Part shown: in pieces, positions 6,951-25,059 of the stretch
How the letters are laid out: each line of letters opens with the position of its first letter
How positions within the stretch are numbered: position 1 is the first letter of the stretch
Assembly: GCF_004367745.1 (NCBI RefSeq)
Contig: NZ_CP037993.1
Span: forward strand, 4,526,001 to 4,590,000
Origin: Herbaspirillum huttiense
GTDB lineage: Bacteria > Pseudomonadota > Gammaproteobacteria > Burkholderiales > Burkholderiaceae_D
DNA: 64,000 nucleotides
Direction: 5' to 3'
Program-made: the position numbers and the translations under genes
Notes under the pieces: model-generated
The model's database searches: none
Told to the model about the DNA's origin: nothing
What the model saw: the letters and a program-made list of their open reading frames with translations, nothing else

Positions 6951-8315
6951 TCAGCGGTCGCTGATGGCACGCAGGTTGTCGGCGCTGTAGAAACTGTCGC
7001 GCAGACGCGGGTTGTCCTTGACCTCGGTTTCCCAGCGGATGTCCTTGCCGGTGCCGGCCGAGTGCGAATCCATCAGGTAGCGACCTTCGGCCAGGTTGTA
7101 CTGGGCGAAGCCGGCGAGATCGCAGGCACCGGTTTCATAGACCGGAATGATGTAACCCTCGCGATGCTTCCACAGCTTGTTCTGGGCGTCGTAGTCGTCG
7201 GAGAGCACCAGGTTCCAGCTGTCTTCATCGACATAGAAGGTCCGCTTGGGGGCCAGGTGGCGTACGCCCGGCTTGACCGTGGCTTCCACTACCCAGACCC
7301 GGTGCAGCTCGTAGCGGCGCGCATTCTCGGCCACGAAATCAGGCTTGGCGATGTCGTCGAAATTGGCCTTGAAGTTGTTGGCCCCGAAGCTGTTGTAGGC
7401 GACGTAGATTTCCTTCTTGCCGACCAGCTTCCAGTCGAAGCGGTCCATGGTGCCGTTGAAGACGGTCGGCTCATCCATGGTGTACTGGTTTTCCATGCCG
7501 ATCTGCGGCGCATCGTAGGCATAGGACGGCATGCGGCGCACGCGGCGCTGCCCGGGGAAGTAGTAGAAGGTCTCTGCACCCGGACGATTGAGATAGGTCG
7601 CCACCGTCAGCGCCTGTCCGGCCAGTGCGGTCGGCGAGGCATAGGCAACGTAGGTGTAGAACTCGACTCCGCCCAGCGTGGAAAGCTTGGTGCTGCCCTT
7701 GACGTTGGAGGGATAGAACAGCGTCAGTTGCTGGCTGGCCTTGATCCACTCATTGCTGCCCTTGCGCGGCGAGACGGCGGTGATGGTGTTGGGGAAGTCC
7801 ACGCCCACGCCGCGATAGCGCATCTTGCTGTTGTACATGACCTCCAGGCCGGTCTTGGGCAGCGGGAAGGGAATACCGGGCACGTTGGCTTCGGCCAGGC
7901 TCCAGCCGTCGGCACCGATCTTGCCGTCGGCCACATTCTTCCTGGTGTTCTCGACCACGAAGTCGGGCGCGGCACAGTAGCGGTGGGTGGGATAGATATC
8001 CATCTTGTAGCCCTTGACCTGCTTGATCAGGGCCACCTGTCCCGGCGTCAGGTGATCGGCGTACTTGTCCACGTTGGAGGCGTCGATGACCTCGGTGGGC
8101 TTTTCATCCTTGTACTTGAAATAGTCCTTGCGCAGCTTGCCGTAGGACCAGCCGGGCAATTCCACGTTTTCCGCCTTCCATTCCGGGACGCCCTGGCCGG
8201 CGGCCTTGTCGCCGCCCAGCGGGGTCAGGGTGCTGCCCAGATCTTGCATCGAGGCCGCGTGCGCCAGTGCCGCGCCCATTGCCAGCAGGGACAAACCGAG
8301 GATCGTTCTCTTCAT
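6951..8315 (-). CDS. DUF1329 family periplasmic/outer-membrane lipid-binding-like protein
   Basis: A 454-residue exported protein. An in-frame upstream ATG exists at 8393, but the ATG at 8315 is chosen because it starts a proper signal peptide (MKRTILGLSLLAMGAALAHA) and GGAGAAAG lies just upstream. DUF1329 proteins have a LolB/LppX-like fold and occur with DUF1302 and MMPL exporters. The present gene precedes DUF1302 by 44 bp in an operon headed by the aminotransferase. Direct function is unknown; transfer of a hydrophobic molecule across the envelope is the usual proposal. Confidence 0.85.
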   Translation of the reverse strand: MKRTILGLSLLAMGAALAHAASMQDLGSTLTPLGGDKAAGQGVPEWKAENVELPGWSYGKLRKDYFKYKDEKPTEVIDASNVDKYADHLTPGQVALIKQVKGYKMDIYPTHRYCAAPDFVVENTRKNVADGKIGADGWSLAEANVPGIPFPLPKTGLEVMYNSKMRYRGVGVDFPNTITAVSPRKGSNEWIKASQQLTLFYPSNVKGSTKLSTLGGVEFYTYVAYASPTALAGQALTVATYLNRPGAETFYYFPGQRRVRRMPSYAYDAPQIGMENQYTMDEPTVFNGTMDRFDWKLVGKKEIYVAYNSFGANNFKANFDDIAKPDFVAENARRYELHRVWVVEATVKPGVRHLAPKRTFYVDEDSWNLVLSDDYDAQNKLWKHREGYIIPVYETGACDLAGFAQYNLAEGRYLMDSHSAGTGKDIRWETEVKDNPRLRDSFYSADNLRAISDR

Positions 8316-8406: not shown

Positions 8407-9777
8407 TCAGAGGGAGGCCAGGCCGGCGCCGAAGATGTCCAGTCCCTTGAACATCAGCGAACGCGGAATGGTCAGCGAAGGCATCACGCGCATGACGTTG
8501 GTGTAGCGGCCACACGGAATCATCAGCACGCCATGGCCGACCACGTAGTCCATGAGCTTGCCCAGCTTCTCGCGCGAGAGCGGTTCGCGGGTCTCGCGGT
8601 TCTCCACCAGCTCGATGCCGATCATCAGGCCGCGTCCGCGCACCTCGCCGATCCAGGGGCTGTTGAAGCTGCGAATGCGTTCCTGCGCTTCCAGGCCCAG
8701 GGCATGGGCGCGGTTGACCAGGTCCAGGCTCGGGTCTTGCAGGATGCTGATGTTGGTCAGCGCCACCGCTGCCGAGATCGAATTGGCGGCGAAGGTATTG
8801 GGCTGCGAACCATCAGGGATCTTGGCCGCGAGATCGGAACGCATCACCAGGCCGGCCATCGGCATGTCGCCGCCGATGCCCTTGCCGAAGGTCAGCATGT
8901 CGGGCTTCACGCCCGAATGTTCCACCGCCCACATCTTGCCGGTGCGGCCGGCACCGGCCTGGACTTCATCGACAATCAGCAGCGCGCCGCTGCGGTCGCA
9001 GGCCTTGCGCAGGATCTGCAGGAACTCCGGCGACGGCGGCACATAGCCGCCCTCGCCCTGCACCGGCTCGACGATCACGGCCGCCACATCATCGGCGGCG
9101 GTGTAGGGAGTGTTGAGCAGGTAATCGACGTATTCACCGGCGATCTGCTCGGCGCTCTTGTTGCTGGTGTCGAAGGGGAAACGGTAGGCGTAGGGATACG
9201 GTGCGTGGATCACGCCGCCCATGAAGGGACCGAAGCCCTTGCGGTAGGCGGTGCCGGTGGTGAGCGCATTGGAGGCATTCCAGATGCCGTGATAGCCGCC
9301 GTGGAAGGCGATGATCTGGTGACGGCCGGTGACGCGCTTGGCGAACTTCACGGCGGCTTCCAGCGCATCGCTGCCACCCTGGGTGAAGAAGGTGATGCAG
9401 TCGCCGCGCAGGCCCTCGGGCATGATCTCCGAGATCTTGGCGGCCAGCTCGGTACGCTTGGAGCTGTTGACTTCCATCGAGTGCATCAGCGATCCGGATT
9501 GCTCACGGATCGCTTCCACCACGCGCGGATTGCAGCGCCCGACGCTGCTCACGCCGACGCCGGCGGAGAGGTCGATGAAGGTATTGCCGTCCGGGTCCTT
9601 GAAGGTCACGCCGAAGGCCTGGTCCATGGCGATGGGCATGCGGCCGCCGCCACGTGCCATCGACTCGGTGCGTGCCGACAGTTCCAGCGCCGCTGCCGTC
9701 TTGGGGCCGGGATAGGTGGACGACACCATCTTGGGAGCGTCAGCAAAGTTGAGCGACTCCAGTTCTGCTTCAATCAT
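8407..9777 (-). CDS. Class III PLP-dependent aminotransferase (omega/GABA-type)
   Basis: A 456-residue fold-type I aminotransferase of subgroup II (acetylornithine/4-aminobutyrate/omega-amine group). The PLP lysine is Lys299 in TFGKGIGGD. Asp270 in IVDEVQAG contacts the pyridine nitrogen, and the TQGGSDALE loop (about 132-140) binds phosphate. The ATG at 9777 is used, not the in-frame ATG at 9885, because the family N-terminus begins here and AAGGTAAG precedes it. The amine donor cannot be named from sequence. It heads the DUF1329-DUF1302-MMPL-YCF48 run and has a shared regulatory element about 142 bp upstream. Confidence 0.85.
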   Translation of the reverse strand: MIEAELESLNFADAPKMVSSTYPGPKTAAALELSARTESMARGGGRMPIAMDQAFGVTFKDPDGNTFIDLSAGVGVSSVGRCNPRVVEAIREQSGSLMHSMEVNSSKRTELAAKISEIMPEGLRGDCITFFTQGGSDALEAAVKFAKRVTGRHQIIAFHGGYHGIWNASNALTTGTAYRKGFGPFMGGVIHAPYPYAYRFPFDTSNKSAEQIAGEYVDYLLNTPYTAADDVAAVIVEPVQGEGGYVPPSPEFLQILRKACDRSGALLIVDEVQAGAGRTGKMWAVEHSGVKPDMLTFGKGIGGDMPMAGLVMRSDLAAKIPDGSQPNTFAANSISAAVALTNISILQDPSLDLVNRAHALGLEAQERIRSFNSPWIGEVRGRGLMIGIELVENRETREPLSREKLGKLMDYVVGHGVLMIPCGRYTNVMRVMPSLTIPRSLMFKGLDIFGAGLASL

Positions 9778-10022: not shown

Positions 10023-10050
10023 AGAAAAAAATGGCGGCCGGAGCCGCCAT
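10023..10050 (-). terminator. Rho-independent terminator of the chemoreceptor/ten-gene run
   Basis: On the minus strand, ATGGCGGC, a four-base loop and GCCGCCAT are followed by a run of seven T. It lies about 110 bp after the chemoreceptor stop and separates the ten-gene run from the aminotransferase promoter. Confidence 0.8.
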
Positions 10051-10158
10051 CAAGGATGCTGCCAGGCACCAGAACACACAACGATGTACAGAAAGACGTA
10101 CCGGATTACGGGCAGAAGAACGTACGGAAACCACGCCCGAAAAAAGAAGGAGAAACCG

Positions 10159-11766
10159 TTACCCCAGCGGCAAGGCCAGCGACGGAGGCGACTGCGATGC
10201 ATGAAGCAACTGCGCGCCCTCCGCAATCCTGAACACCGACACCGTCCCCAGCAGGTTGCCTGCCTGCTGGCGCAGGCTCTCGCTGGCGGCCGCGCTTTGT
10301 TCGACCAGGGCGGCGTTCTGCTGCAGGGCATCGTCCAGTTGCCGGATGGCACCCTCGACTTCGGCGATGTCTGCGCTCTGGGTCACGCTGGCCTCGCTGA
10401 TCTGGGCCACGATGGCCGAGACGCTGCGCACCGCCGCCACGATGTCCTGCATGGTCTGCCCGGCACGGTCCACCAGGCGCGCGCCGGTCTGGATGCGCGC
10501 TACCGATTCATGGATCAGGGCCTTGGTCTCGCGTGCGGCCAATGAACTGCGCTGGGCCAGTGAGCGCACCTCGGTGGCCACCACCGCAAAGCCGCGCCCC
10601 TGCTCCCCGGCGCGCGCCGCTTCCACGGCTGCATTCAAGGCCAGGATATTGGTCTGGAAGGCGATGCCATCGATGGTGCCGACGATCTCCGAGATGCGCT
10701 GCGAACTGTCCTCGATGCCGCGCATGGTCTGCACCACTTCCTGCACCACCTCTCCTCCCTGCAGCGCCACCGTACTGGCCTGCCGCGCGGTGCCGCTGGC
10801 CTGGCGGGCATCCTCGGCATTCTTCTGCACCGTGGCACTGAGTTCATTCATGGTGGCTGCCGTCTCTTCCAGCGCGGCGGCCTGGGCTTCGGTGCGGGTG
10901 GAGAGATCGGCATTGCCGGCGGCGATCTGCACGCTGGCCGTGGCCACGTGTTCGGCTTCGCGCCGCACGCCTGCCACGATGCCGACCAGTGCCTGCTGCA
11001 TGCGCTGCATGGCAGTGAGCAACTGGCTGATCTCGTCGCGGCCGCTGACCGTGATCTCCTGATCCAGCGCGCCTTCGGCAATGCGATGCGCAGCCTGTAC
11101 CGCACGCCGCAGCGGTCCGGCAATTCCACCAATGAGCAAGCGCGCCAGTACCAGCGTGCCGAGCAGCGCGGCCACACTGACTGCGATGAGCGCGTGCCGG
11201 GCGGAGACGAAGGCTTGCTGGCCATCGGCTACCGAGGCCGCCGATTCCTGCGCCACCGAATCGCTGATGAACTTGAGGATGCCGGCCATCTGCTCGTAAG
11301 GCGCGGCACTGTCGGCCGCCAGCAGCAGCGCCTCGGCCGACTGCCCGGCAGCAGCCAGCGCCACCGCCTTCTCGGCCAGGGCGCGATAGGCCTGCCAGCT
11401 GGCGCTCAGTTGGCGGCTGGTGGCGCGTTCGTCATCATTGCTGGCGAAGTCGACCAGGATCTTGAGATACCTCTCTGCATAGGCCAGGCCCTCGCGCCGC
11501 GCCTGGGCGGCCGCCGTGCCGCCACTGCCATCATCGGCCAGCAGGGCCAGCGTCACGCCCATGCGGTATTGCGCCATGCCGATGCGTATGCCCGAGACCG
11601 ATTCCATGGCCGGCACGTTGATGCTGCCGAGCTGCTCGACCTGGCGGTTGATATGGCTCATGCGGCCATAGGAAAACAGCGCCATGCCGATCAGCATCAG
11701 CAACAGCAGCACGAAGGCCAGCCGCAGCCGGGCCGCAATGCTCAATGCAGCGAGCGCCTGCCTCAT
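10159..11766 (-). CDS. Methyl-accepting chemotaxis protein (4HB type)
   Basis: A 535-residue transmembrane chemoreceptor. TM1 is near residues 13-33, followed by a four-helix-bundle-like periplasmic domain of about 150 residues. TM2 is near 190-210, a HAMP domain near 212-265, and the long signalling hairpin has the conserved tip ([21 protein letters not shown], first residues) that binds CheA/CheW. The C-terminus has no NWETF-like CheR/CheB docking peptide. It is the last gene of the minus-strand catabolic run, 26 bp after the aldehyde dehydrogenase, so it may sense the pathway's substrate or product. Confidence 0.9.
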
Positions 11767-11792
11767 CGTTACTCCCCTGGGTGGTGGATGGC

Positions 11793-13235
11793 TCAGCCGG
11801 GTACGTGGCTGATCTGGCTGATCATCTTGGTGACCAGGAAGCTGTCGAAGCTCTCGGTGCCGCCTTCGCTGCCGAAGCCGCTTTCACCGATACCGCCGAA
11901 GGGCAGCTCGGGATGCGCCATGCCGGAATGGTTGATGTTGACCATGCCGGCCTGCAAGCCGCTGGCCACCTCGTGCGCCGTGGCCAGCGACTGCGTGAAG
12001 ACGTAGGAGGCCAGGCCCAGGGGCAGCGCATTGGCCATGGCCAGGGCCTGCGCGGTATGGGCGAAGGGCGTGACGGCGGCCACCGGGCCGAAGGGCTCTT
12101 CCTGCATCACGCGGGCCGTCGGCGGCACATCGGCCAGCAGCGTGGGCGCATGGAAGTGGCCGCGCTCACCGATGCGCCGGCCCCCCGTGACCAGTTGCGC
12201 GCCCTGGCTCACGGCGTCTTCGATCAGGCCATGTACCGCGTCGAAGCGGCGGCCATGGATCAGCGGCCCCATCTGCACACCGGCTTCAAGACCCGAACCG
12301 ACTTTCACCTGCTGCAGGGCATCGGCCAGGGCCACCACGAAGCGGTCGTAAATGCGCTGGTGAACAAAAAAGCGCGACGGCGATACGCAGACCTGGCCGG
12401 CGTTACGAATCTTCAGTCGCGCCAGCAGGCGCGCGGCCGCGTCCACCTCGGCATCGTCAAACACCAGTACTGGCGCGTGCCCGCCCAGCTCCATGCTCAT
12501 GCGCTTCATATGCAGCGCAGCCTGGGCGGCCAGCTGGCTGCCCACGGGAATGGAGCCAGTGAAGGAAATGGACCGCACCACGGGCGAGGCGATCAGCTGC
12601 CGCGAGATCTCCGACGACACCCCCCAGACGATATTGAAGACGCCCGCCGGCACGCCCGCATCATGAAACAGCTGTGCCATCAGCACGATGGCGGCGGGCG
12701 ATTCCGAGGGTCCCTTCAACACCACCGTACAGCCTGCCGCCATGGCCGCTGCCACCTTCTTCATGGCCTGCCCGAACGGGAAATTCCATGGACTGATGGC
12801 CGCGCACACCCCGACCGGTTCGCGCACCACCAGCTGTCGCACCTCGGGATGGCGCGCGCCGACCACGCGGCCATACAGGCGGCGGCCTTCCTCGGCGTGC
12901 CAGTCGAGGTGCTCGGCGGCATTGAGGATCTCGGCGACGGCGTCGGCCAGCGGCTTGCCGTTGTCCATGGTGATGGCCGGGGCCATCGCCTGCGCGCGTT
13001 CACGCGTGAGCGCGGCGGCGCGGCGCAGGATGTCGGACCGCTCCAGCGGCGAGACCTTGCGCCACTGCTGGAAAGCGGCATGGGCGGCCTGGATGGCCTC
13101 CTCGATATCGCCGGCCTCGGCCCAGGGCAGGCGCCCCAGTACCTCACCCGTGGCAGGATCGCGCACTTCCTGGTAGCGGCGGCCGTCGAGGCCATGGAAA
13201 CGTCCGTTGATGTAGAGCTGCAGGTCGGGATACAT
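11793..13235 (-). CDS. NAD(P)-dependent aldehyde dehydrogenase
   Basis: A 480-residue ALDH-superfamily enzyme oxidising an aldehyde to its acid. Catalytic Cys283 is in [11 protein letters not shown], the general base Glu249 in MELGGHAP, the oxyanion Asn151 in SPWNF and cofactor Lys174 in VVLKGPSE. Overall it is closest in style to succinate-semialdehyde and related aromatic/aliphatic aldehyde dehydrogenases. It follows the FAD monooxygenase by 75 bp and precedes the chemoreceptor by 26 bp. The likely job is to oxidise an aldehyde made by the ThDP decarboxylase or a ring-cleavage step; this is inference. Confidence 0.88.
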
Positions 13236-13310
13236 GGGTCACCTTGAAGAGGAAAAGACCGGTACGCGCACGGCATACCGTCTGCAATGCAGAAACAGGA
13301 GCCGCTTGCG

Positions 13311-14921
13311 TCAGCAGGCCACGCGGTCGAGGAAGAGCTGCATCACCGCAGGCGCATCGTCGGCGCGGCCGGCGGCGGCGATGAAACGGTCGGGACGCAG
13401 GAGCACCCAGTCCACGCCCTTTTCCTTGAACCAGGCATTGAGCTTGTTCTCATGGTCCTGGATCACCGTGCCGGAGCCGGTCAGCGGCACGCCGCGCGCG
13501 CCGCTGCGCGAGCGCACGCCCTGCAGGTAATCACAGCCGAAGGCCTGCATGCGGCGGCGCAGATCAGGATCGACGGTCGCTGCAGGCAGCACGTCACAGC
13601 GCCAGCTCAGCAGCGTGAAGCGGCTGCCGCACAGGTCATCGAGCCGCATCACCTCGCCCTCGCCGGTTTCCACCAGCGATTGCAGGAACATGCGTCCGAC
13701 CAGGTCATCGCGATTGCGCGGGTCGCCCTGCATCACGGCCTGGCTGTGGAAGCTGGGCATGGGCTTGAATTTCATCTGCAGCACGTAGTCGCGCACGCGC
13801 GGGATATCCTTGATGGCCAGGAAGAACTTGTCGCGGCACCAGGCCAGCAGGCGGTTCTTCTGCGACAGCACCGCACCGAACAGGTCGGCCAGGTCGATCA
13901 TGGCCTTGACGTGGGCATGACGCTCGTCGTGATAGCTGGCCAGCAGTGCGGGCTTCATCCGGCCCTGCAGCACCCAGGCCAGTTTCCAGGCCAGGTTGAA
14001 GGCATCGCGCAAGCCGGCATTCAAGCCCTGCCCGATCCACGGCGGCGTGATGTGGGCGGCGTCGCCGGCCAGGCAGATGCGGCCGCACACCAGCGAGCCG
14101 GCCACGCGCGAATTGTGGGTGTAGACCCGGGCACGGATGATGTTGAGCGCATCGACATCGGCCACGTGTTCGCGCAACAACTCGCGCACCTTGGCCGGGG
14201 CCAGCATCTGTTCGCCATCCTCGCCGGGGAACAGCATGAACTCCCAGCGCCGCACGCCATAGGGCAGCGCCAGGCACACATAGGGGCGCTGCGGTTCGCA
14301 ATGCAGGGCGGTGTAGGGCGCATCCAGCGGATCGCCATCGCACTCGATCACCACCCACTTGGCAGGATGGGTCTTGCCCTCGTAGGGCAGCTTGAGGATT
14401 TTCTCGCGCACGGTGCTGCGGCCGCCATCGCAGCCCACGGCATACTGCGCGGCCAGGTAGCTCTGCATGCCATGCGCATCGCTGATGGTGGCCAGCACGC
14501 CCCGCTCGTCCTGCACCAGGTCCAGCAGCTCCACGCCCGAGCGCAGCTCCACATGCGGGAAGCGCTGCAGTCCCTGGCGCAGCGTGGCCTCGCCCAGCGG
14601 CTGCGAGAACAGGTTGCGGCGATACCAGCCGAATTCGCGCGTGGTCGGCTGGATCTCGGCGAAACAGCGGCGGTCGGCGGTGTACATGCGCATGGGCACG
14701 TTCTGGATCACGTCGCGCACGATGGCGTCGGCCATGCCGGCGGACTGGAAGGTGCGCAGCGCTTCGTCATCGATGCCCACTGCGCGCGGATAATCCAGCA
14801 CGTCCAGGTTGCGCTCGATGATGAGCGTGGAGATGCCATAGGTACCCAGCAGATTGGCCAGCGTCACCCCGACCGGGCCGGCACCGATGATGAGCACCTG
14901 GGCCTGGACCGCTGTACTCAT
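13311..14921 (-). CDS. FAD-dependent aromatic monooxygenase, MhpA-like
   Basis: A 536-residue group A flavoprotein hydroxylase resembling 3-(3-hydroxyphenyl)propionate hydroxylase (MhpA). The dinucleotide motif GAGPVG starts at residue 13. The DG motif (GCDGGRSTVRE, about 160) and the GD motif (CLAGDAAHITPP, about 285) contact NADPH and FAD ribose. These enzymes hydroxylate a phenolic ring next to an existing OH. Its start overlaps the stop of the NIPSNAP gene by four bases (ATGA), so translation is coupled. MhpA itself is about 554 residues and normally sits with ring-cleavage genes; here the VOC gene is the only such candidate. Confidence 0.85.
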   Translation of the reverse strand: MSTAVQAQVLIIGAGPVGVTLANLLGTYGISTLIIERNLDVLDYPRAVGIDDEALRTFQSAGMADAIVRDVIQNVPMRMYTADRRCFAEIQPTTREFGWYRRNLFSQPLGEATLRQGLQRFPHVELRSGVELLDLVQDERGVLATISDAHGMQSYLAAQYAVGCDGGRSTVREKILKLPYEGKTHPAKWVVIECDGDPLDAPYTALHCEPQRPYVCLALPYGVRRWEFMLFPGEDGEQMLAPAKVRELLREHVADVDALNIIRARVYTHNSRVAGSLVCGRICLAGDAAHITPPWIGQGLNAGLRDAFNLAWKLAWVLQGRMKPALLASYHDERHAHVKAMIDLADLFGAVLSQKNRLLAWCRDKFFLAIKDIPRVRDYVLQMKFKPMPSFHSQAVMQGDPRNRDDLVGRMFLQSLVETGEGEVMRLDDLCGSRFTLLSWRCDVLPAATVDPDLRRRMQAFGCDYLQGVRSRSGARGVPLTGSGTVIQDHENKLNAWFKEKGVDWVLLRPDRFIAAAGRADDAPAVMQLFLDRVAC

Positions 14922-15256
14922 GCGGCACTCCCGGCATGCGCCGCCGCTGCGGCCGGTTCGGGCGCGCTGGTGAGCAGGCGGCTTTCCTGTTGCACCAGCA
15001 GGCCGCGCACCTGCTTGCGGAATTCGGCGAAATCGGGATCGGCCAGCAGTGCCGTACGGCGGCGTGCGCGGTCTTCCAGGCTGTCAAAGGCCCAGTGGTA
15101 GACCAGCTGGTTGAGGTCGCCGCTCTCCGGAATCATCATCGCCACCAGATGGCCCAGCAGGCGGACCTGGTGCGCGCGGCCGCATTCGTTGTAGATGCGG
15201 ACGTACTCGCGCACGCCGCCGGGCACCATGGTGTAGGTGCGCAGTTCATGGATCAT
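14918..15256 (-). CDS. NIPSNAP family protein
   Basis: A 112-residue ferredoxin-like, alpha-beta barrel-type protein of the NIPSNAP family. It begins MIHELRTYTMVPGGVREY and carries the family's conserved aromatic HWAFDSLEDR region. The ATG at 15256 is used because GGGGAGAAGA precedes it; a longer frame to 15370 runs into the hydrolase gene. It overlaps both neighbours by four bases (ATGA at each junction), showing tight coupling between hydrolase and monooxygenase. The molecular role of bacterial NIPSNAP proteins is not established; small-molecule binding or an auxiliary monooxygenase-like role is possible. Confidence 0.8.
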   Translation of the reverse strand: MIHELRTYTMVPGGVREYVRIYNECGRAHQVRLLGHLVAMMIPESGDLNQLVYHWAFDSLEDRARRRTALLADPDFAEFRKQVRGLLVQQESRLLTSAPEPAAAAAHAGSAA

Positions 15257-16122
15257 GATGTCTTCTCCCCCTTGTCCTGTTGTTCTTGTTGCAGGAATTC
15301 CCGCACCGCCGTGGCGAAGGCTTCCGGCTGGTCGTCGTGGATGTAGTGGCCGGCATCGGCAATGGTGCAAGTGAGCACGCGCGCGTTGAGCTGGCGCATT
15401 TCCGCCGCGATGGCGGCCGACAGGTAGTCCGAACGTTCACCGCGCACCACCAGCGTCGGGCACGCCAGCGCCATGAGGTGCGGACGCAGGTCGACCACGC
15501 GCGTGATGTCGGGCATGAGGCGTGTGGCACTGATGCCGACGTGGTCATAGCGCCAGGTATAGCCGCCGTCCGCTGTGGGCTTGAGCATGTTGTCCAGGCG
15601 CTGCTGGCGCGCCTCTTCGGTCACGGTGGGACGCAGCGCGCGCATGAAGATGCTGGCTTCTTCCCAACTGCCGAAGTGACTCGGTGTAGTGGCCAGTTCG
15701 CGGCGGATGCGGCTGGCACCGGGGCTGTTCTCGAAAGCGCCGGGACCGGCATCCTCGATGACGAGGCGACGCACCTGCGACGGATGCCGCGCGGCATAGA
15801 CGATGGCATTGATGCCGCCCATGGAGTGGCCCAGCAGGTCGAACTGGCGCAGGCCCAGGCGTGCCACCAGTGCCTCCATGTCGGCCACGTAGGTATCGGT
15901 GTAGTAGTTGCAGCCCGGATCCCAATCGCTCTGGCCGCGCCCGCGCTGGTCCAGCGCGATGCAGCGGTAGCCGGACGGCAGGCGTTGCACCAGGTCGGCA
16001 AAGGTCTCGCCATAGCCACGGATGCCGTGCAGGAGCAGCAGGGGAAAGTCCTGCGGATCGCCCCATTCGGTGACGTGGAACTGCAAACCCGTGAGGGTCA
16101 GCGAATAATCTCGGCGCTGCAT
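15253..16122 (-). CDS. Alpha/beta hydrolase
   Basis: A 289-residue alpha/beta-hydrolase-fold enzyme. The nucleophile is Ser100 in the elbow GHSMGG, the acid is probably Asp232 (GERSDYLS), and the base is His259 (DAGHYIHDD). The oxyanion motif is LLLHGIRG. The family includes meta-cleavage product hydrolases (MhpC/BphD type), which fits a catabolic operon next to an MhpA-like hydroxylase, but esterase or lactonase activity is equally possible. Its stop overlaps the NIPSNAP start. The upstream DUF1185 gene ends 32 bp away. Confidence 0.85.
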   Translation of the reverse strand: MQRRDYSLTLTGLQFHVTEWGDPQDFPLLLLHGIRGYGETFADLVQRLPSGYRCIALDQRGRGQSDWDPGCNYYTDTYVADMEALVARLGLRQFDLLGHSMGGINAIVYAARHPSQVRRLVIEDAGPGAFENSPGASRIRRELATTPSHFGSWEEASIFMRALRPTVTEEARQQRLDNMLKPTADGGYTWRYDHVGISATRLMPDITRVVDLRPHLMALACPTLVVRGERSDYLSAAIAAEMRQLNARVLTCTIADAGHYIHDDQPEAFATAVREFLQQEQQDKGEKTS

Positions 16123-16154
16123 GATGGTCTCCCTGATCCTTGCGTGTGGCGACC

Positions 16155-16757
16155 TCAGACCAGGCCGTCCTGCCCCTTCACCTCGGAGGCCTTGAGGCCA
16201 CCCAGGCGGGCGTTCAGACGGCCACGGGTGGCGAAGGCCCAGATCACCACCACTTCATCGCGGTTGGGGCCGTCGTTGAACTGGGCGCTGACGGTGTCGT
16301 AGTGGGAGCGCACGTACAAGGCATCCTTGTGCGCCAGCGGGATGTCGATGATGGTGCCGGGACCGCCGCGCTTGCCGGTCGAGGGCACCCAGGACTTGGC
16401 ACCGCCCACGCCGTCGCGCACCGGATTGGCAGCCGGATTGGTGAGCAGCGCGTTGCCGTGTTCGTACTCGCCATCCACGCCCACCAGGCAAGCCTTGCCA
16501 TAACTCTCGATGGCCCGGCCCTGCGCGGCCTCGCGGATGCGGCGGGCGAATTCCTGGCCCAGCAGCGGCGAAGGATTGATCCACGAGGACAGGTCCTCGA
16601 CATACTTGCCGGCGAAGGGATTGTGCAGGCAGGCGGCGATGACGATCTTGCGCAGCGGCGCACCATCGGCGTCCTTGCCGCTCTCGCCGGCCAGGCTGTC
16701 TTCGATTTGCAGGTACCACTTGCGGATGTGGAAGTTCTCGAAATTGGGGGTCTTCAT
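16155..16757 (-). CDS. 'Amino acid synthesis' family protein (DUF1185)
   Basis: A 200-residue protein resembling the Pfam 'amino acid synthesis' (formerly DUF1185) family. It contains ACLHNPFAGKY, GKACLVGVDGEYEHGNALL and IIDIPLAHKDALYVRSHYDT, long polar stretches typical of the group. The ATG at 16757 has AAGGACA upstream and is preferred to the in-frame ATG at 16790. Despite the family name, no biochemical function is established. It lies between the VOC and hydrolase genes, and its presence in a degradative operon suggests a catabolic rather than biosynthetic role. Confidence 0.75.
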   Translation of the reverse strand: MKTPNFENFHIRKWYLQIEDSLAGESGKDADGAPLRKIVIAACLHNPFAGKYVEDLSSWINPSPLLGQEFARRIREAAQGRAIESYGKACLVGVDGEYEHGNALLTNPAANPVRDGVGGAKSWVPSTGKRGGPGTIIDIPLAHKDALYVRSHYDTVSAQFNDGPNRDEVVVIWAFATRGRLNARLGGLKASEVKGQDGLV

Positions 16758-16811
16758 CGGATGTCCTTGGAAAGAATCGATACGGTGCAATGGGGTGAAG
16801 CAGTGCCGGGC

Positions 16812-17297
16812 TTACAGCGGATCCAGATGGAAGCTGTCGCTGGGGGCGTTGTACTGGCCCAGCAGGCGCTTGCCTTCTTCGTCGTCGTGGGCGGTCTCGA
16901 AGAAGAATTCGAAACGGTGGCCATCCGGGTCGTGGAAGTAGATGCCATAGCCGACCTTGTGATCGGTGATCTTGAAGATCTCGATGCCCTTGGCCAGCAA
17001 CATGCCGTAGAGGCGGCGGAATTCCTCCATGTCGCCTTCCACCTCCAGGCCGTAGTGCTGCATGTTGACTTCGCCGCGCACGGCTTGAGCAGGTTCGTCC
17101 ACGCGGATGAGCGCAATGTCGTGGTGCTTCTTGCCGAAGGACAGGAACACCCAGCGCTCGGCGCGAGCCGTCACCGTCATGCCCAGCACGTCTTCGTACC
17201 AGGGAGCCGAACCATGCGGGTCCTTCACGAACAGGGCCAGGTGGGTGCGGCGGATGCGTGGCTTGATGGCCATGGCCGGGGTGGCAGTGGCGGACAT
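16812..17297 (-). CDS. VOC-superfamily (glyoxalase/extradiol dioxygenase-like) protein
   Basis: A 161-residue single-domain VOC protein. The candidate metal-binding triad is His19 (RRTHLALF), His81 (NMQHYGLEV) and Glu130 (GHRFEFFFE), the 2-His-1-carboxylate arrangement of extradiol dioxygenases and glyoxalases. It is short compared with two-domain BphC/MhpB enzymes (about 290-310), so ring cleavage would require a homodimeric one-domain type. As the only dioxygenase-like gene next to the MhpA-type hydroxylase, it is the best candidate for ring cleavage in this operon. That is inference. Confidence 0.78.
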   Translation of the reverse strand: MSATATPAMAIKPRIRRTHLALFVKDPHGSAPWYEDVLGMTVTARAERWVFLSFGKKHHDIALIRVDEPAQAVRGEVNMQHYGLEVEGDMEEFRRLYGMLLAKGIEIFKITDHKVGYGIYFHDPDGHRFEFFFETAHDDEEGKRLLGQYNAPSDSFHLDPL

Positions 17298-17321
17298 GAG
17301 GCCCTCCTTTGTCTGGTTGGT

Positions 17322-18359
17322 CTAGTCGATCGATTGCGGATGGGCATGCACCGGAGCCACGAAAGGCGTCCAGGCTACCGAGGTGATTTCGCTGAAGTCG
17401 CGCCATTCCTTGTACCAGCTGCGTCCGCCATCGGTGGAGCGCAGCAGGTAGCCGTACTTGGTGCCGGCAAACAGCAGTTGCGGATCGGAGGGATGGCCGC
17501 CGAAGGCCCATACCGTGGAATTGGGCGCGGTGTGCAGCACGCTGGGCTGCCAGCTCTGGCCGCGATCTTCGGAACGATAGATGCGGGTGCGCGTGCCGGG
17601 CGTGCCGTCGCCGATGGCCAGCAGCAGCTGATTGCCCTGCGGGTCCAGCGCCTGGATGGTGCGGGTGTAGTACATGCCGTCGAAGCGTTCCTTGGAGGCC
17701 TTGGCCGTGAAGCTGGCGGCATCGTCGGTGCTCTCGCAGACGGAGTTGACCGTCACCACCACATGCTTGACCGGCGCATCGGCGGTCGCGGGCAGCACGG
17801 TGATGGCGTGGATGTCGGAATTGTTGATGCCACGGCCCGGGGTATCGATGCGGGTCCAGGTATCGCCTTCATCATTGCTGCGCCAGGCACCGCCTTCTTC
17901 GACGCCGAACCAGACTTCCTGCGGCGCATCGGCGCGCACGAAGATGGTCAGGATGCGCGGCTTGTGCACGCCCGAGCAGAATTCCGGCAGCTCCACATCC
18001 AGCTGTTGCCACGACAGGCCGCCATCGCGCGAGCGATACATGCGGGCGCGTGAGGGTGCGCCGGTGCCGGCGAAGACCAGCTTGGGATTGCTCGGACTGA
18101 AGGCAATCGACCAGACGGTCTGCTCATCGGCCGGCGAAGCGATGCGCTTGAAATGGGCACCGCCGTCGGTGCTCAGGCAAATGCCGGCGTCGGCCCCCGC
18201 CAGTACGCGTGACGGATCCGAGGGATCGACGGCCAGGCTGCGTACCACGCCGTCGAATTCGATGGCTTCCTTCAGGCCCAGGCGGTGCCAGGTCGCACCA
18301 TTGTCGACGCTGCGCACGATGCCTTGGCCGGCCGTACCGACCAGGATGGTTCCTTGCAT
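17322..18359 (-). CDS. BNR/VPS10-like beta-propeller protein, probably cytoplasmic
   Basis: A 345-residue protein built of BNR/sortilin-like repeats (SVDNGATWHR, STDGGAHFKR, SRDGGLSWQQ, SNDEGDTWTR, SEDRGQSWQP, STDGGRSWYK). It has no signal peptide; the sequence starts MQGTILVGTAGQG and goes straight into the first blade. Similar genes are annotated as glycosidase- or neuraminidase-like, but the enzyme active-site residues of sialidases are not visible. It sits between the SDR-like and VOC genes in the operon. Unlike the exported YCF48 protein at 1685-2701 it appears to remain in the cytoplasm, perhaps as a scaffold or a sugar-lactone-type hydrolase. Confidence 0.7.
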   Translation of the reverse strand: MQGTILVGTAGQGIVRSVDNGATWHRLGLKEAIEFDGVVRSLAVDPSDPSRVLAGADAGICLSTDGGAHFKRIASPADEQTVWSIAFSPSNPKLVFAGTGAPSRARMYRSRDGGLSWQQLDVELPEFCSGVHKPRILTIFVRADAPQEVWFGVEEGGAWRSNDEGDTWTRIDTPGRGINNSDIHAITVLPATADAPVKHVVVTVNSVCESTDDAASFTAKASKERFDGMYYTRTIQALDPQGNQLLLAIGDGTPGTRTRIYRSEDRGQSWQPSVLHTAPNSTVWAFGGHPSDPQLLFAGTKYGYLLRSTDGGRSWYKEWRDFSEITSVAWTPFVAPVHAHPQSID

Positions 18360-18389
18360 GATGGTGTCCTTTTCAGTAGTTCAGTCTGC

Positions 18390-19184
18390 TCAGAGATAGA
18401 TGCCGCGGGTGATGCCGCCATCCACCGCAATCGATTCGCCGGTGATGGCCGCCGCGCGGGGCGAAGCCAGGAACAGCACGACGTCGGCGATCTCTTCCAC
18501 CTGCAGCACGCGGCGGATTGGCGTGGCCTTGGCATAGTTCTGCTCGACCTGCTCGGGGGTCAGCCCTTGCAGCTTGGCTTCCTTCTCGTAGAGTTCGTGG
18601 ATGTGCGGGGTCTCGACCACGCCGGGGTGGATCACGTTGACGGTGATGCCATCCGGACCGAGCTGGTCCGACAGGGTCTTGGTGAGATGGCAGATGGCCA
18701 CGTTGCGCATGCCGGACAACTGCTTGCTGCCGCGGCCGGTGAGCCCGCCGATATTGATGATGCGGCCATAGCCACCGGTGCGCATGTGCGCAGCGGCCGC
18801 CTTGGCAAAGCGCATGTAGCCGACCACCTTGATGTTGATGTCTTCGAGCAGGCCTTCGGGGCTGGCGTGCTGGATTTCCGAGCGCACCAGCCCGCCCGGA
18901 TGGGCTGCGCCATTGACCAGGATGTCGATGCCGCCGAAGTGCTGCGCGGCCTGTGCCACGGCCGCTTCCACCTGTTCGGTATTGCTGACGTCGGCAGCCA
19001 CGGCGATGACTTCAGTGCCGGTGGTGTGGGTCAGCTCCTTGGCCACTTCTTCCAGCTTGCCCTTGCTGCGCGCGACGATGGCCACGCGAACGCCTTCGCG
19101 CGCGAGTGCCTCGGCCACTGCCCGCCCGATGCCCAGGCTGCCGCCGGTGACGATGGCGGTCTTGCCTTGCAGATTCAGTTCCAT
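18390..19184 (-). CDS. SDR-fold protein lacking the Ser-Tyr-Lys catalytic residues
   Basis: A 264-residue classical short-chain dehydrogenase/reductase fold. The nucleotide-binding TGGSLGIG is at 13-20, and a DILVNGAA segment replaces the usual NNAG. The C-terminal ATPIRRVLQVEEIADVVLFL and GESIAVDGG segments are normal. At the active site, IINIGG stands where the serine motif is expected. SGMRN (157-161) aligns with YSASK, so both the Tyr and Lys of YxxxK are absent. It is therefore probably not a standard oxidoreductase. It follows the ThDP enzyme by 57 bp. Confidence 0.8.
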   Translation of the reverse strand: MELNLQGKTAIVTGGSLGIGRAVAEALAREGVRVAIVARSKGKLEEVAKELTHTTGTEVIAVAADVSNTEQVEAAVAQAAQHFGGIDILVNGAAHPGGLVRSEIQHASPEGLLEDINIKVVGYMRFAKAAAAHMRTGGYGRIINIGGLTGRGSKQLSGMRNVAICHLTKTLSDQLGPDGITVNVIHPGVVETPHIHELYEKEAKLQGLTPEQVEQNYAKATPIRRVLQVEEIADVVLFLASPRAAAITGESIAVDGGITRGIYL

Positions 19185-19241
19185 GCTTGCTCCTTGTTTT
19201 ATGCCGTGGTGTGCGTCGGATGTGATTGATGCGGAAATGAT

Positions 19242-20798
19242 TTACAGCGCCATCTCGATCAGGGCCGGGCCGCTGCCGGCAAAGGCCGCCTGCAACTGCT
19301 GCTGCAATTGCTGCGCAGTCTCGGCACGCGAGGCGGGGACGCCATAGGACTGCGCCAGCGCAACCCAGTCGATGCGCGGATGATCGAGTGCCGTCATCTG
19401 CGCGGCACGTTCGCCCAGCGGCGCGCCGTCGCGGCGCAGTTCATTGCGCAGGATGGCGTATTGGTGATTGGCGGCGATCAGCACCACGACCCGGGCGTTT
19501 TCATGGGCCAGCGACCACAGCGTCTGGATGGTGTATTGCGTGCTGCCATCGGAGAGCAGGCCGACCACCGTGCGCTCCGGGCAGGCCACCGCCGCGCCCA
19601 GCGCGACCGGCAGACCCTGGCCGATGGCACCACCGGTATTGGTGAGCACCGTATGCGGGCGCGCCGCATCCGATACCGCATAGAAGGGATAGCCGCAGGT
19701 ACCGCCCTCGACCGAGACGATGGCGTGCTCGGGCAACTCGCGCGCCAGCACGGCGGCGATCTTCTGCGGGTTCAGTTCGCCCTCGGGCAGCGCTGGCAAG
19801 GCGTGCTGCGGCACTGCGTAGGGCGGCGCACCGAGCGCATCGGCCAGCTGTTCCACGCGGGCAGCGGCAGGACGGCTCGGCAGGCTGATGGTGAGCAGGC
19901 GCTCGGGAGCCACCAGCGCACTGGGATGGCCGACATAGCCGAAGTAGGTAATCGGCGGGAGCGCGCCCACCAGCACCACCAGGTCCGCCTCATCGAGGAC
20001 CTTGCGCGCCGGCTCGGGGAAATACGGCAGGCGGTCGAAGGAAGGCAAGCCCTGGCCGCGCTCGGCGCGGGCCGGGAACGTTTCTGCATAGACGCTGCAG
20101 CCGGTATGGGCGGCGATCCGCGCCACAGCACGCTGGGCGCGGGCACCAAGACCGCTCTCCTCGCCACCGCCGCCCAGCAGGAAGACCACGCGCTTGGCAT
20201 CGCGGAGGCGCGCCAATGCCTGGGCCGGCTGGTAATCGTCTGCGGGTCCCGTGGATTCTTCCACGGCGGCCACGGCATGGGACTCAGCGATGTCAGCGAA
20301 CTGGAAATCGGCCGGGAAGATCAGGGTACTGCCCTGCCCGCCTGCGGCCATGCTCTGGCGCACGGAGTCAGCGGCCGCAGAGGTGATGTCGTCGGTGCCG
20401 GTGATGCGGTGGACCCAGCCCGAGACGGGACGGGCCAGCGATTCGATATCGGAGGTCAGCGGTGCGTCGTAAGGCAGGTGCCAGCTGGTGTGGTCGCCGA
20501 TGATGTTGACGATGGGGGTGCGGGCGCGGCGTGCGTTGTGCAGGTTGGCGATGCCATTGGCAAATCCCGGTCCCAGGTGCAGCAAGGTGCTGGCCGGACG
20601 GCCCAGCATGCGGCCATAGCCATCGGCCGCGCCGGTGCAGACATTTTCTTGCAGGGCGACGACGCAGCGCAGCCCGGGAAAACTTTCCAGGCCACGGACC
20701 AGGTCCAGTTCGGTAGTGCCGGGATTGGCGAAACAGGTATCCACACCTTGGTCCAGCAGACCGGCCCATAAGGCGTGTGCTCCGGTGTATCGGGTCAT
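19242..20798 (-). CDS. Thiamine diphosphate-dependent enzyme (acetolactate synthase/benzoylformate decarboxylase-like)
   Basis: A 518-residue three-domain ThDP enzyme. The cofactor-activating Glu51 is in VALQENVCTGAADGYGR; the C-terminal Mg/ThDP motif is LLSDGS about residue 410 with ANHQY about 26 residues later, so Ser replaces the usual Gly of GDG and His the second Asn. Relatives decarboxylate 2-oxo acids (benzoylformate, phenylpyruvate) or make acetolactate. It is the promoter-proximal gene of the ten-gene run. An aldehyde product would fit the aldehyde dehydrogenase at the other end. Confidence 0.82.
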   Translation of the reverse strand: MTRYTGAHALWAGLLDQGVDTCFANPGTTELDLVRGLESFPGLRCVVALQENVCTGAADGYGRMLGRPASTLLHLGPGFANGIANLHNARRARTPIVNIIGDHTSWHLPYDAPLTSDIESLARPVSGWVHRITGTDDITSAAADSVRQSMAAGGQGSTLIFPADFQFADIAESHAVAAVEESTGPADDYQPAQALARLRDAKRVVFLLGGGGEESGLGARAQRAVARIAAHTGCSVYAETFPARAERGQGLPSFDRLPYFPEPARKVLDEADLVVLVGALPPITYFGYVGHPSALVAPERLLTISLPSRPAAARVEQLADALGAPPYAVPQHALPALPEGELNPQKIAAVLARELPEHAIVSVEGGTCGYPFYAVSDAARPHTVLTNTGGAIGQGLPVALGAAVACPERTVVGLLSDGSTQYTIQTLWSLAHENARVVVLIAANHQYAILRNELRRDGAPLGERAAQMTALDHPRIDWVALAQSYGVPASRAETAQQLQQQLQAAFAGSGPALIEMAL

Positions 20799-21115: not shown

Positions 21116-21850
21116 ATGAATAGCCTGAGCCGCATGCTGGAAGTGTTGACCTTGTTCAAGCCCAGCCAACCCGTCATCGACATCGACATCATCTGTGCCC
21201 AGCTGGGCTACACCCCGGCTAGCGCCTATCGCTACGTGCGCGAACTCGGCCATGCCGGTTTGCTGGTGAAGATGCCGCGCGGCTATGCCGTGGGTCCGAA
21301 GGTGATCGAGCTGGATCGCCACATGACGCAGTTCGATCCCTTGCTGGCGGCCAGCCGCGACATCGTCGGCGACCTGGTGGCGCAGACCGGGCTGGAACTG
21401 CTCATCAGCGAGCTGTATGGTTCGACGGTGATCAACATCCTGCAGGAGTCCGGCAACAATGACGCGCGCCTGAACTATGGGCGCGGTACGCCCATGGACC
21501 TGTTCCACAGCGCCACGGCGCGGGTGATCCTGGCCTATCTGCTGCCGCGCCAGTTGCGCAAGCATTTCGATGGGGCCACGGCGGAGGAACTGCGGCTGGT
21601 GGGGAGCAACTGGAAGGACTTCTCGAAGGTGATGCTGAAGATCCGCAAGGATGGCTATTGCGTCAGCGAGGGTGAGCTGGACCCGGGCAAGACCGGTATC
21701 GCCGCGCCTATCTTCGATGAGAAGCAACGCATTCTTGGCAGCATCACGCTGGCCGGCAACACGGAACGGGTCAACGCATTCAACCGCGATTTCCTGTCGG
21801 GGCTGATTACGGATGCGGCGCGCAAGATTACGGCGCGCATTGCGGGCTGA
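21116..21850 (+). CDS. IclR family transcriptional regulator
   Basis: A 244-residue regulator with an N-terminal winged helix-turn-helix (about residues 1-62: SLSRMLEVLTLF, YTPASAYRYVRELGHAGLL) and a C-terminal effector-binding GAF-like domain (about 75-240; GKTGIAAPIFDEKQRILGSI is characteristic). Such proteins sense small aromatic or organic acids and act as repressors or activators of divergent catabolic operons. Here the divergent target is the ThDP-monooxygenase run. A clear bidirectional terminator follows 20 bp after the stop. Confidence 0.88.
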   Translation: MNSLSRMLEVLTLFKPSQPVIDIDIICAQLGYTPASAYRYVRELGHAGLLVKMPRGYAVGPKVIELDRHMTQFDPLLAASRDIVGDLVAQTGLELLISELYGSTVINILQESGNNDARLNYGRGTPMDLFHSATARVILAYLLPRQLRKHFDGATAEELRLVGSNWKDFSKVMLKIRKDGYCVSEGELDPGKTGIAAPIFDEKQRILGSITLAGNTERVNAFNRDFLSGLITDAARKITARIAG

Positions 21851-21911: not shown

Positions 21912-22889
21912 TTATTGGAAGAGCTTCTGCGGCACGCGCCGCGCCGTCTGCGACGGCAACTCCCCGAACAGCTCCTGATAATCCTCGGCAAAGTGGCTCA
22001 GATGGAAGAAGCCCCAGCGTGAAGCCACGTCGCCAATGGAGGCTTCCTGGTGCGTGGTGGAGAGCAATTCGCGCCGCACGCCATTGAGCCGCACGCAGCG
22101 CAGATAATTCAGGGGCGTGGTCTCGGCCACCGTCTGGAAACTGTTCTGCACCGTGCGCCGGCTCACCTGCAGCCGCTGGCATACCTCGAAAATGCTGGGC
22201 ACGTTGGCCGCATCCACGATGGCCTGGCGATGCAGCTTCTCGACGATGTAGCTGCGCGTAGTGCTCATCTGGCGCACGGGATCGGAGTCCGGCGCTGACA
22301 ACAAGCCCAGCAGCTCGCCCAACAACGAAGACTCCAGCGCCTGCTCACGCTGCTCCGCCTGCGCATCGGCCTGCCACTGCCCGCCATCGATCTGCAGCAT
22401 CGATTGCGAGAAGAGGTTGAGCAAGCGTTCGCGACAAGCACGCAAGCCTTTGGGCGGCACCTTGATGACCGGCTGCCGCAGCAAGGCACTGATACGGTCG
22501 GGGTCGGGCATCTGGTGCAGATGCTCCTCGAACAGGTCGCGGTCAAACGTCAGCGACAGCAGGTCGGTATCCATCGGCATGTGGAACATGAATTCCTCGC
22601 CGCCCTGCAGGAACAAGATGCTCTTCTCATCGGCCTCGCGTCCCTGCACGTGCGCCGCACCCGGTGCGGCAATCGGGAAGGCGAAGCAGATCTGGTCCTT
22701 CGGTGCCTCGCCATGCTGGACCACGCGCTTGTTGATGCGCTCGCGAAAGGCGTGGCAGCGCCGGGTCGACAACTGCATCAGCGAGCTCTCCAGCTTGCCG
22801 GCGGAAATCTGTGCATAGGTCTGCTTCCACGCGCCAATGGCGGCGGCGTGCACATGCACATCCTGAAAACGGTGAATGCTTTGCAACAT
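21912..22889 (-). CDS. AraC family transcriptional regulator, EutR-like
   Basis: A 325-residue activator. The N-terminal part (HRFQDVHVHAAAIGAWKQTY) and overall layout resemble EutR, the ethanolamine-responsive activator; the C-terminal ~100 residues are the double helix-turn-helix (SIFEVCQRLQVSRRTVQNSF and SIGDVASRWGFFHLSHFAED). The ATG at 22889 has GGAGAGAG upstream and is preferred to the in-frame ATG at 22943. No eutBC genes are visible, so the effector may be another amine or amino alcohol. It is transcribed away from the second ALDH and is the natural candidate to bind the four shared promoter elements. Confidence 0.82.
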   Translation of the reverse strand: MLQSIHRFQDVHVHAAAIGAWKQTYAQISAGKLESSLMQLSTRRCHAFRERINKRVVQHGEAPKDQICFAFPIAAPGAAHVQGREADEKSILFLQGGEEFMFHMPMDTDLLSLTFDRDLFEEHLHQMPDPDRISALLRQPVIKVPPKGLRACRERLLNLFSQSMLQIDGGQWQADAQAEQREQALESSLLGELLGLLSAPDSDPVRQMSTTRSYIVEKLHRQAIVDAANVPSIFEVCQRLQVSRRTVQNSFQTVAETTPLNYLRCVRLNGVRRELLSTTHQEASIGDVASRWGFFHLSHFAEDYQELFGELPSQTARRVPQKLFQ

Positions 22890-23282: not shown

Positions 23283-23366
23283 CTGGCTCCATGCAGGCCC
23301 AGGTGCGCCCGTCCGCAGGACGCTGCGCATGACCCGCATGCAGTCTCCCGACAACCCACCACGAGA

Positions 23367-24827: not shown

Positions 24828-24870
24828 AGTCGACGCGCCGGATCATCGGCGCACGGAGCAACAACGCGGT

Positions 24871-24897: not shown

Positions 24898-24903
24898 GCG
24901 CCC

Positions 24904-25035: not shown

Positions 25036-25059
25036 CTTTGCTGTATCGGAAAACGTGGC

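Follow-up and report, generated by a model that had tools for sequence, protein, structure and literature searches.

A conserved gene cluster of Herbaspirillum huttiense predicted to encode a variant of aerobic meta-cleavage

The operon and its predicted proteins

We analyzed a 64,000-nucleotide stretch of the Herbaspirillum huttiense genome (assembly GCF_004367745.1, contig NZ_CP037993.1, positions 4,526,001 to 4,590,000 of the forward strand), hereafter called the window, with coordinates counted from its first letter. Between 20798 and 10159, the minus strand carries ten consecutive reading frames. By Pfam and NCBIfam families, their order is a thiamin diphosphate (ThDP)-dependent enzyme, a short-chain dehydrogenase/reductase (SDR), a BNR propeller protein, a VOC protein, an AA_synth protein, an alpha/beta hydrolase, a NIPSNAP protein, a flavin adenine dinucleotide (FAD)-dependent hydroxylase, an aldehyde dehydrogenase (ALDH), and a chemoreceptor (Table 1). 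The intergenic distances in that direction, read directly from the sequence with starts at 15256 for NIPSNAP and 16757 for AA_synth, are 57, 30, 24, 54, 32, −4, −4, 75, and 26 bp, and both −4 junctions (hydrolase/NIPSNAP and NIPSNAP/hydroxylase) are ATGA overlaps. These genes are a single predicted catabolic operon that is tightly conserved. An original prediction, made from this DNA alone, had described ten one-strand genes with small gaps and two ATGA overlaps, and it was borne out in the gene boundaries, in the gaps (24 to 75 bp), and in the family assignments of all ten genes, with DUF1185 now named AA_synth (PF06684). The same prediction had omitted an IclR-family gene, an amine module (21912-26584 and 8407-9777), and a DUF1302/DUF1329 pair.

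Table 1 Features of the operon and its surroundings, with positions in the window
Feature	Position	Strand	Basis or remark
ThDP-dependent decarboxylase-like enzyme	19242..20798	-	PRK07586
SDR, AerF/BacG-like ene-reductase candidate	18390..19184	-	S/Y/K triad replaced by G147, S157, N161
BNR seven-bladed propeller protein	17322..18359	-	by eye, no signal peptide
Single-domain extradiol ring-cleavage dioxygenase candidate (VOC)	16812..17297	-	residues aligned with 1mpy domain 2
AA_synth (PF06684, former DUF1185)	16155..16757	-	225 bits, cut-off 27
Alpha/beta hydrolase	15253..16122	-	GHSMG nucleophile motif
NIPSNAP-domain protein	14918..15256	-	Pfam; ATGA overlaps at both sides
FAD aromatic hydroxylase, MhpA type	13311..14921	-	NF004831
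ALDH, succinate-semialdehyde-dehydrogenase-like	11793..13235	-	E249 and C283
4HB chemoreceptor (4HB-HAMP-MCP), last operon gene	10159..11766	-	Pfam
Terminator-like hairpin	10030..10051	-	9-bp stem and T run, 3′ of chemoreceptor stop
Candidate operator TTTCGTN4ACGAAA	20925..20940	.	6-bp arms without mismatch; IclR-ThDP intergenic region
IclR-family regulator, divergent from operon	21116..21850	+	PcaR/PcaU/PobR-like, 83 bits, below cut-off 284.75
AraC-family regulator, EutR-like	21912..22943	-	143 bits, below cut-off 319
Aldehyde dehydrogenase 2 (ALDH2), phenylacetaldehyde-dehydrogenase-like	23205..24827	+	653 bits, below cut-off 800
APC amino-acid/amine permease	25127..26584	-	65-71% in Pseudomonas core loci having a permease
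Class III aminotransferase	8407..9777	-	amine module; own transcription unit, judging by position
DUF1329 protein	6951..8315	-	also in L011, L015, L055 (3/84 loci)
DUF1302 protein	5167..6906	-	family search
Cytochrome b561-like protein	325..969	-	by eye; similar genes by eye beside amine module, L055 and L170

A seven-member VOC profile was aligned with catechol 2,3-dioxygenase (1mpy), and residues H19, H59, H81, H113, Y120, and E130 had counterparts in its catalytic domain; we take H19, H81, and E130 to be equivalent to the metal site and H59, H113, and Y120 to the second-shell or acid-base residues. Across 85 sequences, each of the six is conserved to at least 97% (residue tables here and below use 75% query coverage), so that the protein has the 2-His-1-Glu site and the second-shell His/His/Tyr of a type I extradiol enzyme; a PS00082-like pattern also matches at position 111. 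With a length of 161 residues, it is predicted to be a single-domain extradiol dioxygenase. The hydroxylase scores 793 bits against NF004831 (cut-off 546), a model whose name is no evidence of the substrate, and carries GAGPVG at residue 13 (GxGxxG) and GDAAHITPPWIGQG at residue 286 (GD motif). Against the 4-hydroxybenzoate hydroxylase model it reaches 89 bits, with a cut-off of 351. The solved relatives of the alpha/beta hydrolase are headed by two unassigned hydrolases, followed by 3kxp (AAMS ring-fragment hydrolase), which is presumably the hydrolase of vitamin B6 breakdown. The hydroxylase cut-off, the VOC residues, and the hydrolase relatives support the earlier reading of these three genes as hydroxylation, ring cleavage, and hydrolysis of an aromatic compound.

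The SDR lacks the classical Ser-Tyr-Lys triad, with G147/S157/N161 in its place in 80 of 80 sequences, the window's own included, and it retains the glycine-rich nucleotide motif. In the same number of sequences (80/80), K119, Y123, S157, and N161 are invariant. Its best solved relatives include AerF (6jh7; 5e-44, 154 bits) and BacG/YwfH (3u49; 7e-34, 121 bits); AerF has K, Y, S, and N at the equivalent places, and BacG has K, Y, and N plus a shifted S, the catalytic set of BacG being, as we assume, K, Y, S, and N. The window SDR displays the AerF/BacG pattern of K-x3-Y plus S and N at the former Tyr and Lys places. Loss of the triad and the K/Y/N equivalents are common to all three proteins, and S-G-x-x-N is common to AerF and the SDR; AerF and BacG differ from the SDR in being biosynthetic enzymes rather than parts of a catabolic setting, and the matches amount to 154 and 121 bits only. 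Because the K/Y/S/N pattern is invariant and present in AerF, the SDR is more likely a candidate C=C reductase, as is AerF, an alkenal reductase, than an inactive dehydrogenase. Its earlier description as catalytically altered thus holds for the missing triad, but the remaining residues fit an ene-reductase of the AerF type.

The closest solved protein to the ThDP enzyme is benzoylformate decarboxylase (4mpp, 2.3e-41), a 2-oxo acid decarboxylase, and E51 and H74 belong to the columns with 97% conservation or more across 72 sequences. The operon ALDH reaches 497 bits against the succinate-semialdehyde dehydrogenase (SSADH) model TIGR01780, below the cut-off of 646. The predicted structure of the BNR protein is a propeller (predicted local distance difference test score, 94.2) whose closest solved match is 3b7f, a putative glycosyl hydrolase of Ralstonia eutropha (Z score, 32.8; root mean square deviation, 2.7 over 315 residues). 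The model also matches 6-phosphogluconolactonase and the fungal carboxymuconate lactonizing enzyme 1jof (Z score, 26.6; root mean square deviation, 3.3 over 307 residues); this fold is common to many proteins, and the function of the BNR protein therefore cannot be inferred from it. Matches to RecA were discarded as artifacts of fused repeat chains, at about eight bits per copy. The original prediction had placed DUF1185, NIPSNAP, and BNR among proteins with no established catalytic role. DUF1185 does have precedents in two catabolic gene sets: its homologue TgnF of trigonelline catabolism was reported to stimulate the oxidation of succinic semialdehyde by TgnE, and the authors working on HcdD, an AA_synth-type protein of 7-hydroxycoumarin catabolism, could not reproduce a TgnF-like stimulation (PMC7913881).

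Conservation of the gene set and comparison with described systems

A contig scan with the seven-member VOC alignment gave at least 225 confirmed relatives, of which the best 80 were kept as loci (L numbers; genomes carry G numbers); a set of 84 adds L011 to L014, and 80 of its members were taken with about 10 kb of flanking sequence. Counting by a minimum aligned length and identity for each gene, and with 16 of the 80 loci shorter than 19 kb, the ThDP enzyme is present in 68 of the 80, the SDR in 75, BNR in 77, AA_synth in 75, the hydrolase in 70, and the hydroxylase in 70. NIPSNAP is found in 25 and an ALDH of the window kind (at least 55% identity) in 18. Seven core genes (ThDP, SDR, BNR, VOC, AA_synth, hydrolase, and hydroxylase) lie on one strand in 58/80 loci and in the same order in 53/80. 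All seven are present in each of the 11 loci with actinobacterial titles, nine of which have the window order, so that bacteria as distant as Pseudomonas and Streptomyces share the gene set. In a tree built from six concatenated core proteins (60 sequences, including the window), the 9 actinobacteria group together, and so do the gammaproteobacteria except for one "Paucimonas" metagenome-assembled genome. Nine of the ten genes stand in a row on an annotated plasmid of Burkholderia pyrrocinia, with the hydroxylase before NIPSNAP and the receptor not among them. Rather than lying in unrelated contexts elsewhere, the outcome that the original prediction had set against itself, the genes are kept together across phyla.

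The closest named VOC relative among the matches listed is from Herbaspirillum sp. GW103 (93%). Across 120 related genomes, VOC and BNR proteins with at least 60% identity are confined to one set of five (G000, which is the genome itself, G008, G020, G021, and G066). The hydroxylase at 57% or more marks those same five, with 40-42% relatives only in five others, and at a looser limit BNR is matched weakly (27-36%) in three more genomes. Of six loci fetched for weaker VOC matches in genus mates, the four inspected (L129, L130, L132, and L134) do not belong to this cluster. Most alphaproteobacterial loci are without the hydroxylase, although L047 carries it. In Novosphingobium sp. KACC 22771, a second BNR-VOC pair (L013:27741-29256; 42% and 34% to the window genes) lies about 12 kb from the first, and BNR-VOC may therefore be a functional unit by itself.

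Meta-cleavage of the mhp type in Escherichia coli proceeds through the hydroxylase MhpA, extradiol cleavage by MhpB, a C-C hydrolase, and MhpD, MhpE, and MhpF. The window operon shares an MhpA-type hydroxylase, extradiol cleavage, and a C-C hydrolase with this system; it differs in having a single-domain VOC protein for MhpB and SDR, ThDP enzyme, and ALDH for MhpD, E, and F, and some relatives of the operon have an additional DmpE-like hydratase. To our knowledge, the tgn genes for trigonelline in Acinetobacter baylyi encode a two-component monooxygenase and no extradiol dioxygenase. They resemble the window operon in bringing together an alpha/beta hydrolase, an SSADH-type ALDH, and AA_synth (for TgnE and TgnF, PMC7913881). 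The hcd genes for 7-hydroxycoumarin in Pseudomonas mandelii 7HK4 are similar in their FAD hydroxylase, extradiol dioxygenase, ring-fragment hydrolase, and AA_synth-type HcdD, which belongs to the inducible hcd set. Compared by description only, they differ in that HcdC is a FAH-family hydrolase and the window protein an alpha/beta hydrolase, and ThDP, AerF-type SDR, BNR, and NIPSNAP proteins are not mentioned in the available parts of the hcd accounts (PMC6222606, PMC7913881). A naringenin-like cluster has been reported in P. thivervalensis SC5, whose identity with the window cluster could not be told from the available part of the report (PMC8515041).

The fde operon for naringenin in Herbaspirillum seropedicae belongs to the same genus and likewise combines an FAD hydroxylase with VOC ring cleavage. 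A flavonoid (fde/ifc) identity was our first lead, and it was dropped once an fde-like operon was located elsewhere in the genome itself. Through Rieske matches, such loci, called fde by gene content and not by fde sequence, were found at 1.03 Mb in the own genome (L138: LysR gene, 376-aa FAD hydroxylase, Rieske match) and at 1.11 Mb in G020 (L137: LysR, 308-aa VOC-like protein, 141-aa Rieske-like protein, 376-aa FAD hydroxylase). They differ from the window in the Rieske partner, the larger VOC protein, the LysR regulator, and hydroxylases that are 24-26% identical to that of the window. No Rieske gene of the FdeD type lies beside the window hydroxylase, and the nine Rieske matches of the own genome all fall outside the 64-kb window. 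By these comparisons, the window cluster is a predicted second route, distinct from the fde-like operon. A search of the literature for the route and for the gene set by name found no description of the operon or its substrate, in agreement with the earlier statement that no complete described route is recognizable.

Ends, receptor, and a linked amine module

A hairpin follows the chemoreceptor gene, and the operon therefore plausibly ends there. The hairpin scan gave 5 sites overall against a shuffle mean of 6.4, i.e., no excess, so it is the stem length that marks 10051-10030 as a terminator candidate. The distance to the next gene, on the aminotransferase side, is 381 bp; with hairpin and gap intervening, a transcript extending to the aminotransferase, DUF1329, and DUF1302 genes was rejected. 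A second, weak hairpin with a T-rich tail lies between the hydroxylase and ALDH genes (13280-13260) and could attenuate the last two operon genes. At the other end, the candidate operator is the only TTTCGTN4ACGAAA site with at most one mismatch in the 64-kb window; one-mismatch copies occur in L015 and G020 (L136), and IclR relatives lie near the core in many loci.

The receptor gene is at the same place in G008, G020, and G021 (82-90% identity) and also in L015, and it is kept in all four Herbaspirillum genomes with the operon, the own included. Among the loci, a receptor gene is found in 5/80 with a signaling-domain query and in 8/84 with the whole receptor (at least 70 bits), one Herbaspirillum being counted in each, a frequency that we judge by estimate to be about background. 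The chemoreceptor was therefore rejected as a general part of the system outside Herbaspirillum and looks like a Herbaspirillum addition.

The amine module consists of the AraC regulator, ALDH2, permease, and aminotransferase genes around the operon. ALDH2 falls below the curated cut-off for StyD phenylacetaldehyde dehydrogenase (Table 1). In the 84 loci, AraC is present in 29, the APC permease in 23, and any aminotransferase of this type in 17. Pseudomonas loci L062, L074, and L085 have an aminotransferase with 84-86% identity to that of the window, whereas their BNR, VOC, and hydroxylase are 45-60% identical; ALDH2 reaches 77-83% in L011, L055, L062, and L085 (77-79% in L062 and L085). Since in L062 and L085 the aminotransferase and ALDH2 (77-84%) are far more similar to the window than the core proteins are (45-68%), module and core look as if they had been brought together separately. 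The recurrence of the module near the Pseudomonas core at this much higher identity suggests that one input of the operon is probably an aryl-alkyl amine.

Among 398 Pseudomonadota genomes, the aminotransferase (E values up to 1e-150) occurs in four, and BNR (up to 1e-60) occurs in the same four, the own included. Among the 120 relatives, the aminotransferase (up to 1e-120) is confined to G000, G008, G020, and G021, and G066 has core genes without it. In the genus of G304, one of these four genomes, 30 of 298 genomes have the aminotransferase. Within the stretches fetched around it (up to about 20 kb to either side, depending on contig ends, and 60 kb in total for G304), all 30 have ALDH2, 28 AraC, 25 APC, and 16 core genes. 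Burkholderia pyrrocinia has a distant aminotransferase-ALDH-permease set (27-51%) a few kilobases from the core.

Several smaller observations concern the neighborhood. Curvibacter lanceolatus has a compact arrangement (L055:8943-19829) of BNR, VOC, hydroxylase, AraC, aminotransferase, ALDH2 (80%), cytochrome b561-like, DUF1329, and DUF1302 genes. Genes for small proteins of periplasmic appearance, whose starts resemble HHSFAxFDxTK and GTWERTPDDW, lie close to the amine module in Pseudomonas (L170:4529-8566) and close to the core in Novosphingobium (L013:2451-3718). Beside the DUF1302/DUF1329 pair of the window, a Ycf48-like BNR protein (1685-2701) and an RND/MMPL-type gene (2721-5090) were noted by eye. 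The counterpart of this second BNR protein in G020 (L135:4952-5962) is weakly similar (23%) to the operon BNR protein.

Proposed route and alternatives

As far as the literature searched reaches, the operon is undescribed, and it would encode a new variant of aerobic meta-cleavage. On balance, we favor, by a modest degree, a conserved unit that breaks down a phenolic compound and is probably fed in Herbaspirillum by an aryl-alkyl amine. The permease would import the amine, the aminotransferase would convert it to the aldehyde, and ALDH2 would yield the acid. The FAD hydroxylase would then add a ring hydroxyl, the single-domain VOC protein would open the ring by extradiol cleavage, and the alpha/beta hydrolase would split a C-C bond. 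In the ring fragment, the AerF-type SDR would reduce a conjugated C=C bond, the ThDP enzyme would decarboxylate the resulting 2-oxo acid, and the operon ALDH, perhaps helped by AA_synth, would oxidize the aldehyde, giving a central metabolite. BNR and NIPSNAP might, as a guess, act as auxiliary proteins in an isomerase or lactonase-like manner, and the chemoreceptor would add taxis in Herbaspirillum. The sequences show which genes are present and conserved, the extradiol and AerF-type residues, and the linkage of the amine module; the reactions, their order, and the substrate we infer from the encoded proteins. What would be unusual is the follow-up to an ordinary meta-cleavage (C=C reduction by the SDR, ThDP decarboxylation, and ALDH oxidation), which would replace a DmpE-like hydratase or, in Pseudomonas, stand beside it. 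A more far-reaching version, which we put forward tentatively, is an undescribed and widespread route in which reduction by the AerF-type SDR, ThDP decarboxylation, and oxidation replace hydration and aldolase and in which the BNR propeller and AA_synth serve specifically in catabolism; it would be fed by aryl-alkyl amines in Herbaspirillum and part of Pseudomonas and coupled to receptor-mediated taxis in Herbaspirillum.

Several observations weigh against this scheme. Core loci without the hydroxylase include L013, L014, L087, L089, L091, and L094, and in Curvibacter L055 and Ideonella L081 the core is reduced to BNR, VOC, and hydroxylase, with no ThDP, SDR, AA_synth, or hydrolase gene in the locus, so these four need not directly follow ring cleavage. 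Both kinds of locus limit what can be inferred about the order of reactions. An extra DmpE-like hydratase in the Pseudomonas clusters (32/84 loci overall) would be the ordinary next step of meta-cleavage. With regard to the amine, an aminotransferase of any kind is near 17/84 core loci and one of the window kind (more than 80%) near 4/84, L015 included. The three non-own genomes with both aminotransferase and BNR are of one genus, and in G304 the genes are about 40 kb apart. No core gene was found in the stretches fetched from 14 of the 30 aminotransferase-bearing genomes of that genus, where some contigs end nearby and the rest of the genomes was unsearched. Since the module is thus also found without a nearby core, the link between them is strong and not exclusive.

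Other readings of the same genes differ in the order of attack or in the substrate. The side chain could be degraded first, the ThDP enzyme and ALDH turning an arylglyoxylate via the arylaldehyde into a hydroxybenzoate that the hydroxylase and the VOC protein then attack; the kinship of the ThDP enzyme with benzoylformate decarboxylase and its position next to an aldehyde dehydrogenase in many Pseudomonas and actinobacterial loci speak for this order, but the best family of the hydroxylase is the MhpA type, with a far weaker match to 4-hydroxybenzoate hydroxylase, and we regard this course as rather improbable. The same low probability attaches to the source that it would need, a beta-hydroxylated arylamine or a mandelate-type compound, and an SDR without the classical triad is unlikely to be a mandelate dehydrogenase. 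Somewhat less probable still is an N-heteroaromatic substrate, with the hydrolase, ALDH, and AA_synth acting like TgnD (which we take to be the hydrolase of that trio), TgnE, and TgnF of trigonelline breakdown. The relation of the hydrolase to 3kxp and the SSADH-like ALDH are in keeping with such a substrate, as is TgnF, reported as an AA_synth homologue stimulating TgnE (PMC7913881). The hydroxylase and the full set of catechol-dioxygenase residues, however, better fit a carbocyclic catechol, an AA_synth protein is also described for the carbocyclic hcd set (PMC7913881), and these similarities are at the family level.

That the operon is a version of the fde/ifc route for the flavonoid A ring is very unlikely: the logic of an FAD hydroxylase followed by a VOC dioxygenase is the same (PMC11069340), but the genome has a separate fde-like operon, the hydroxylases of the fde-like loci are 24-26% identical to that of the window, and the window cluster has neither a LysR nor a Rieske gene. 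We give the least credence of all, bordering on none, to an accidental neighborhood without joint function; against it stand the gene order kept in Proteobacteria and Actinobacteria, the tight spacing, and the ATGA overlaps.

Under the favored reading of a unit for a phenolic compound, AA_synth/DUF1185, the BNR propeller, NIPSNAP, and the SDR without its triad would be assigned to a metabolic setting that can be tested, in a cluster that Proteobacteria and Streptomyces have in common. Through their residues, two proteins become direct targets for assays: a predicted extradiol dioxygenase of only 161 residues and a candidate for a catabolic ene-reductase of the AerF type. The range of substrates to be considered is reduced by the amine module linked to the core. 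In Achromobacter (L020:13729-15324) and Pigmentiphaga (L024:13920-15515), the gene directly 3′ of the hydroxylase gene is sulfatase-like (by eye); inputs may therefore differ by lineage, with a hint of a sulfated input in these two.

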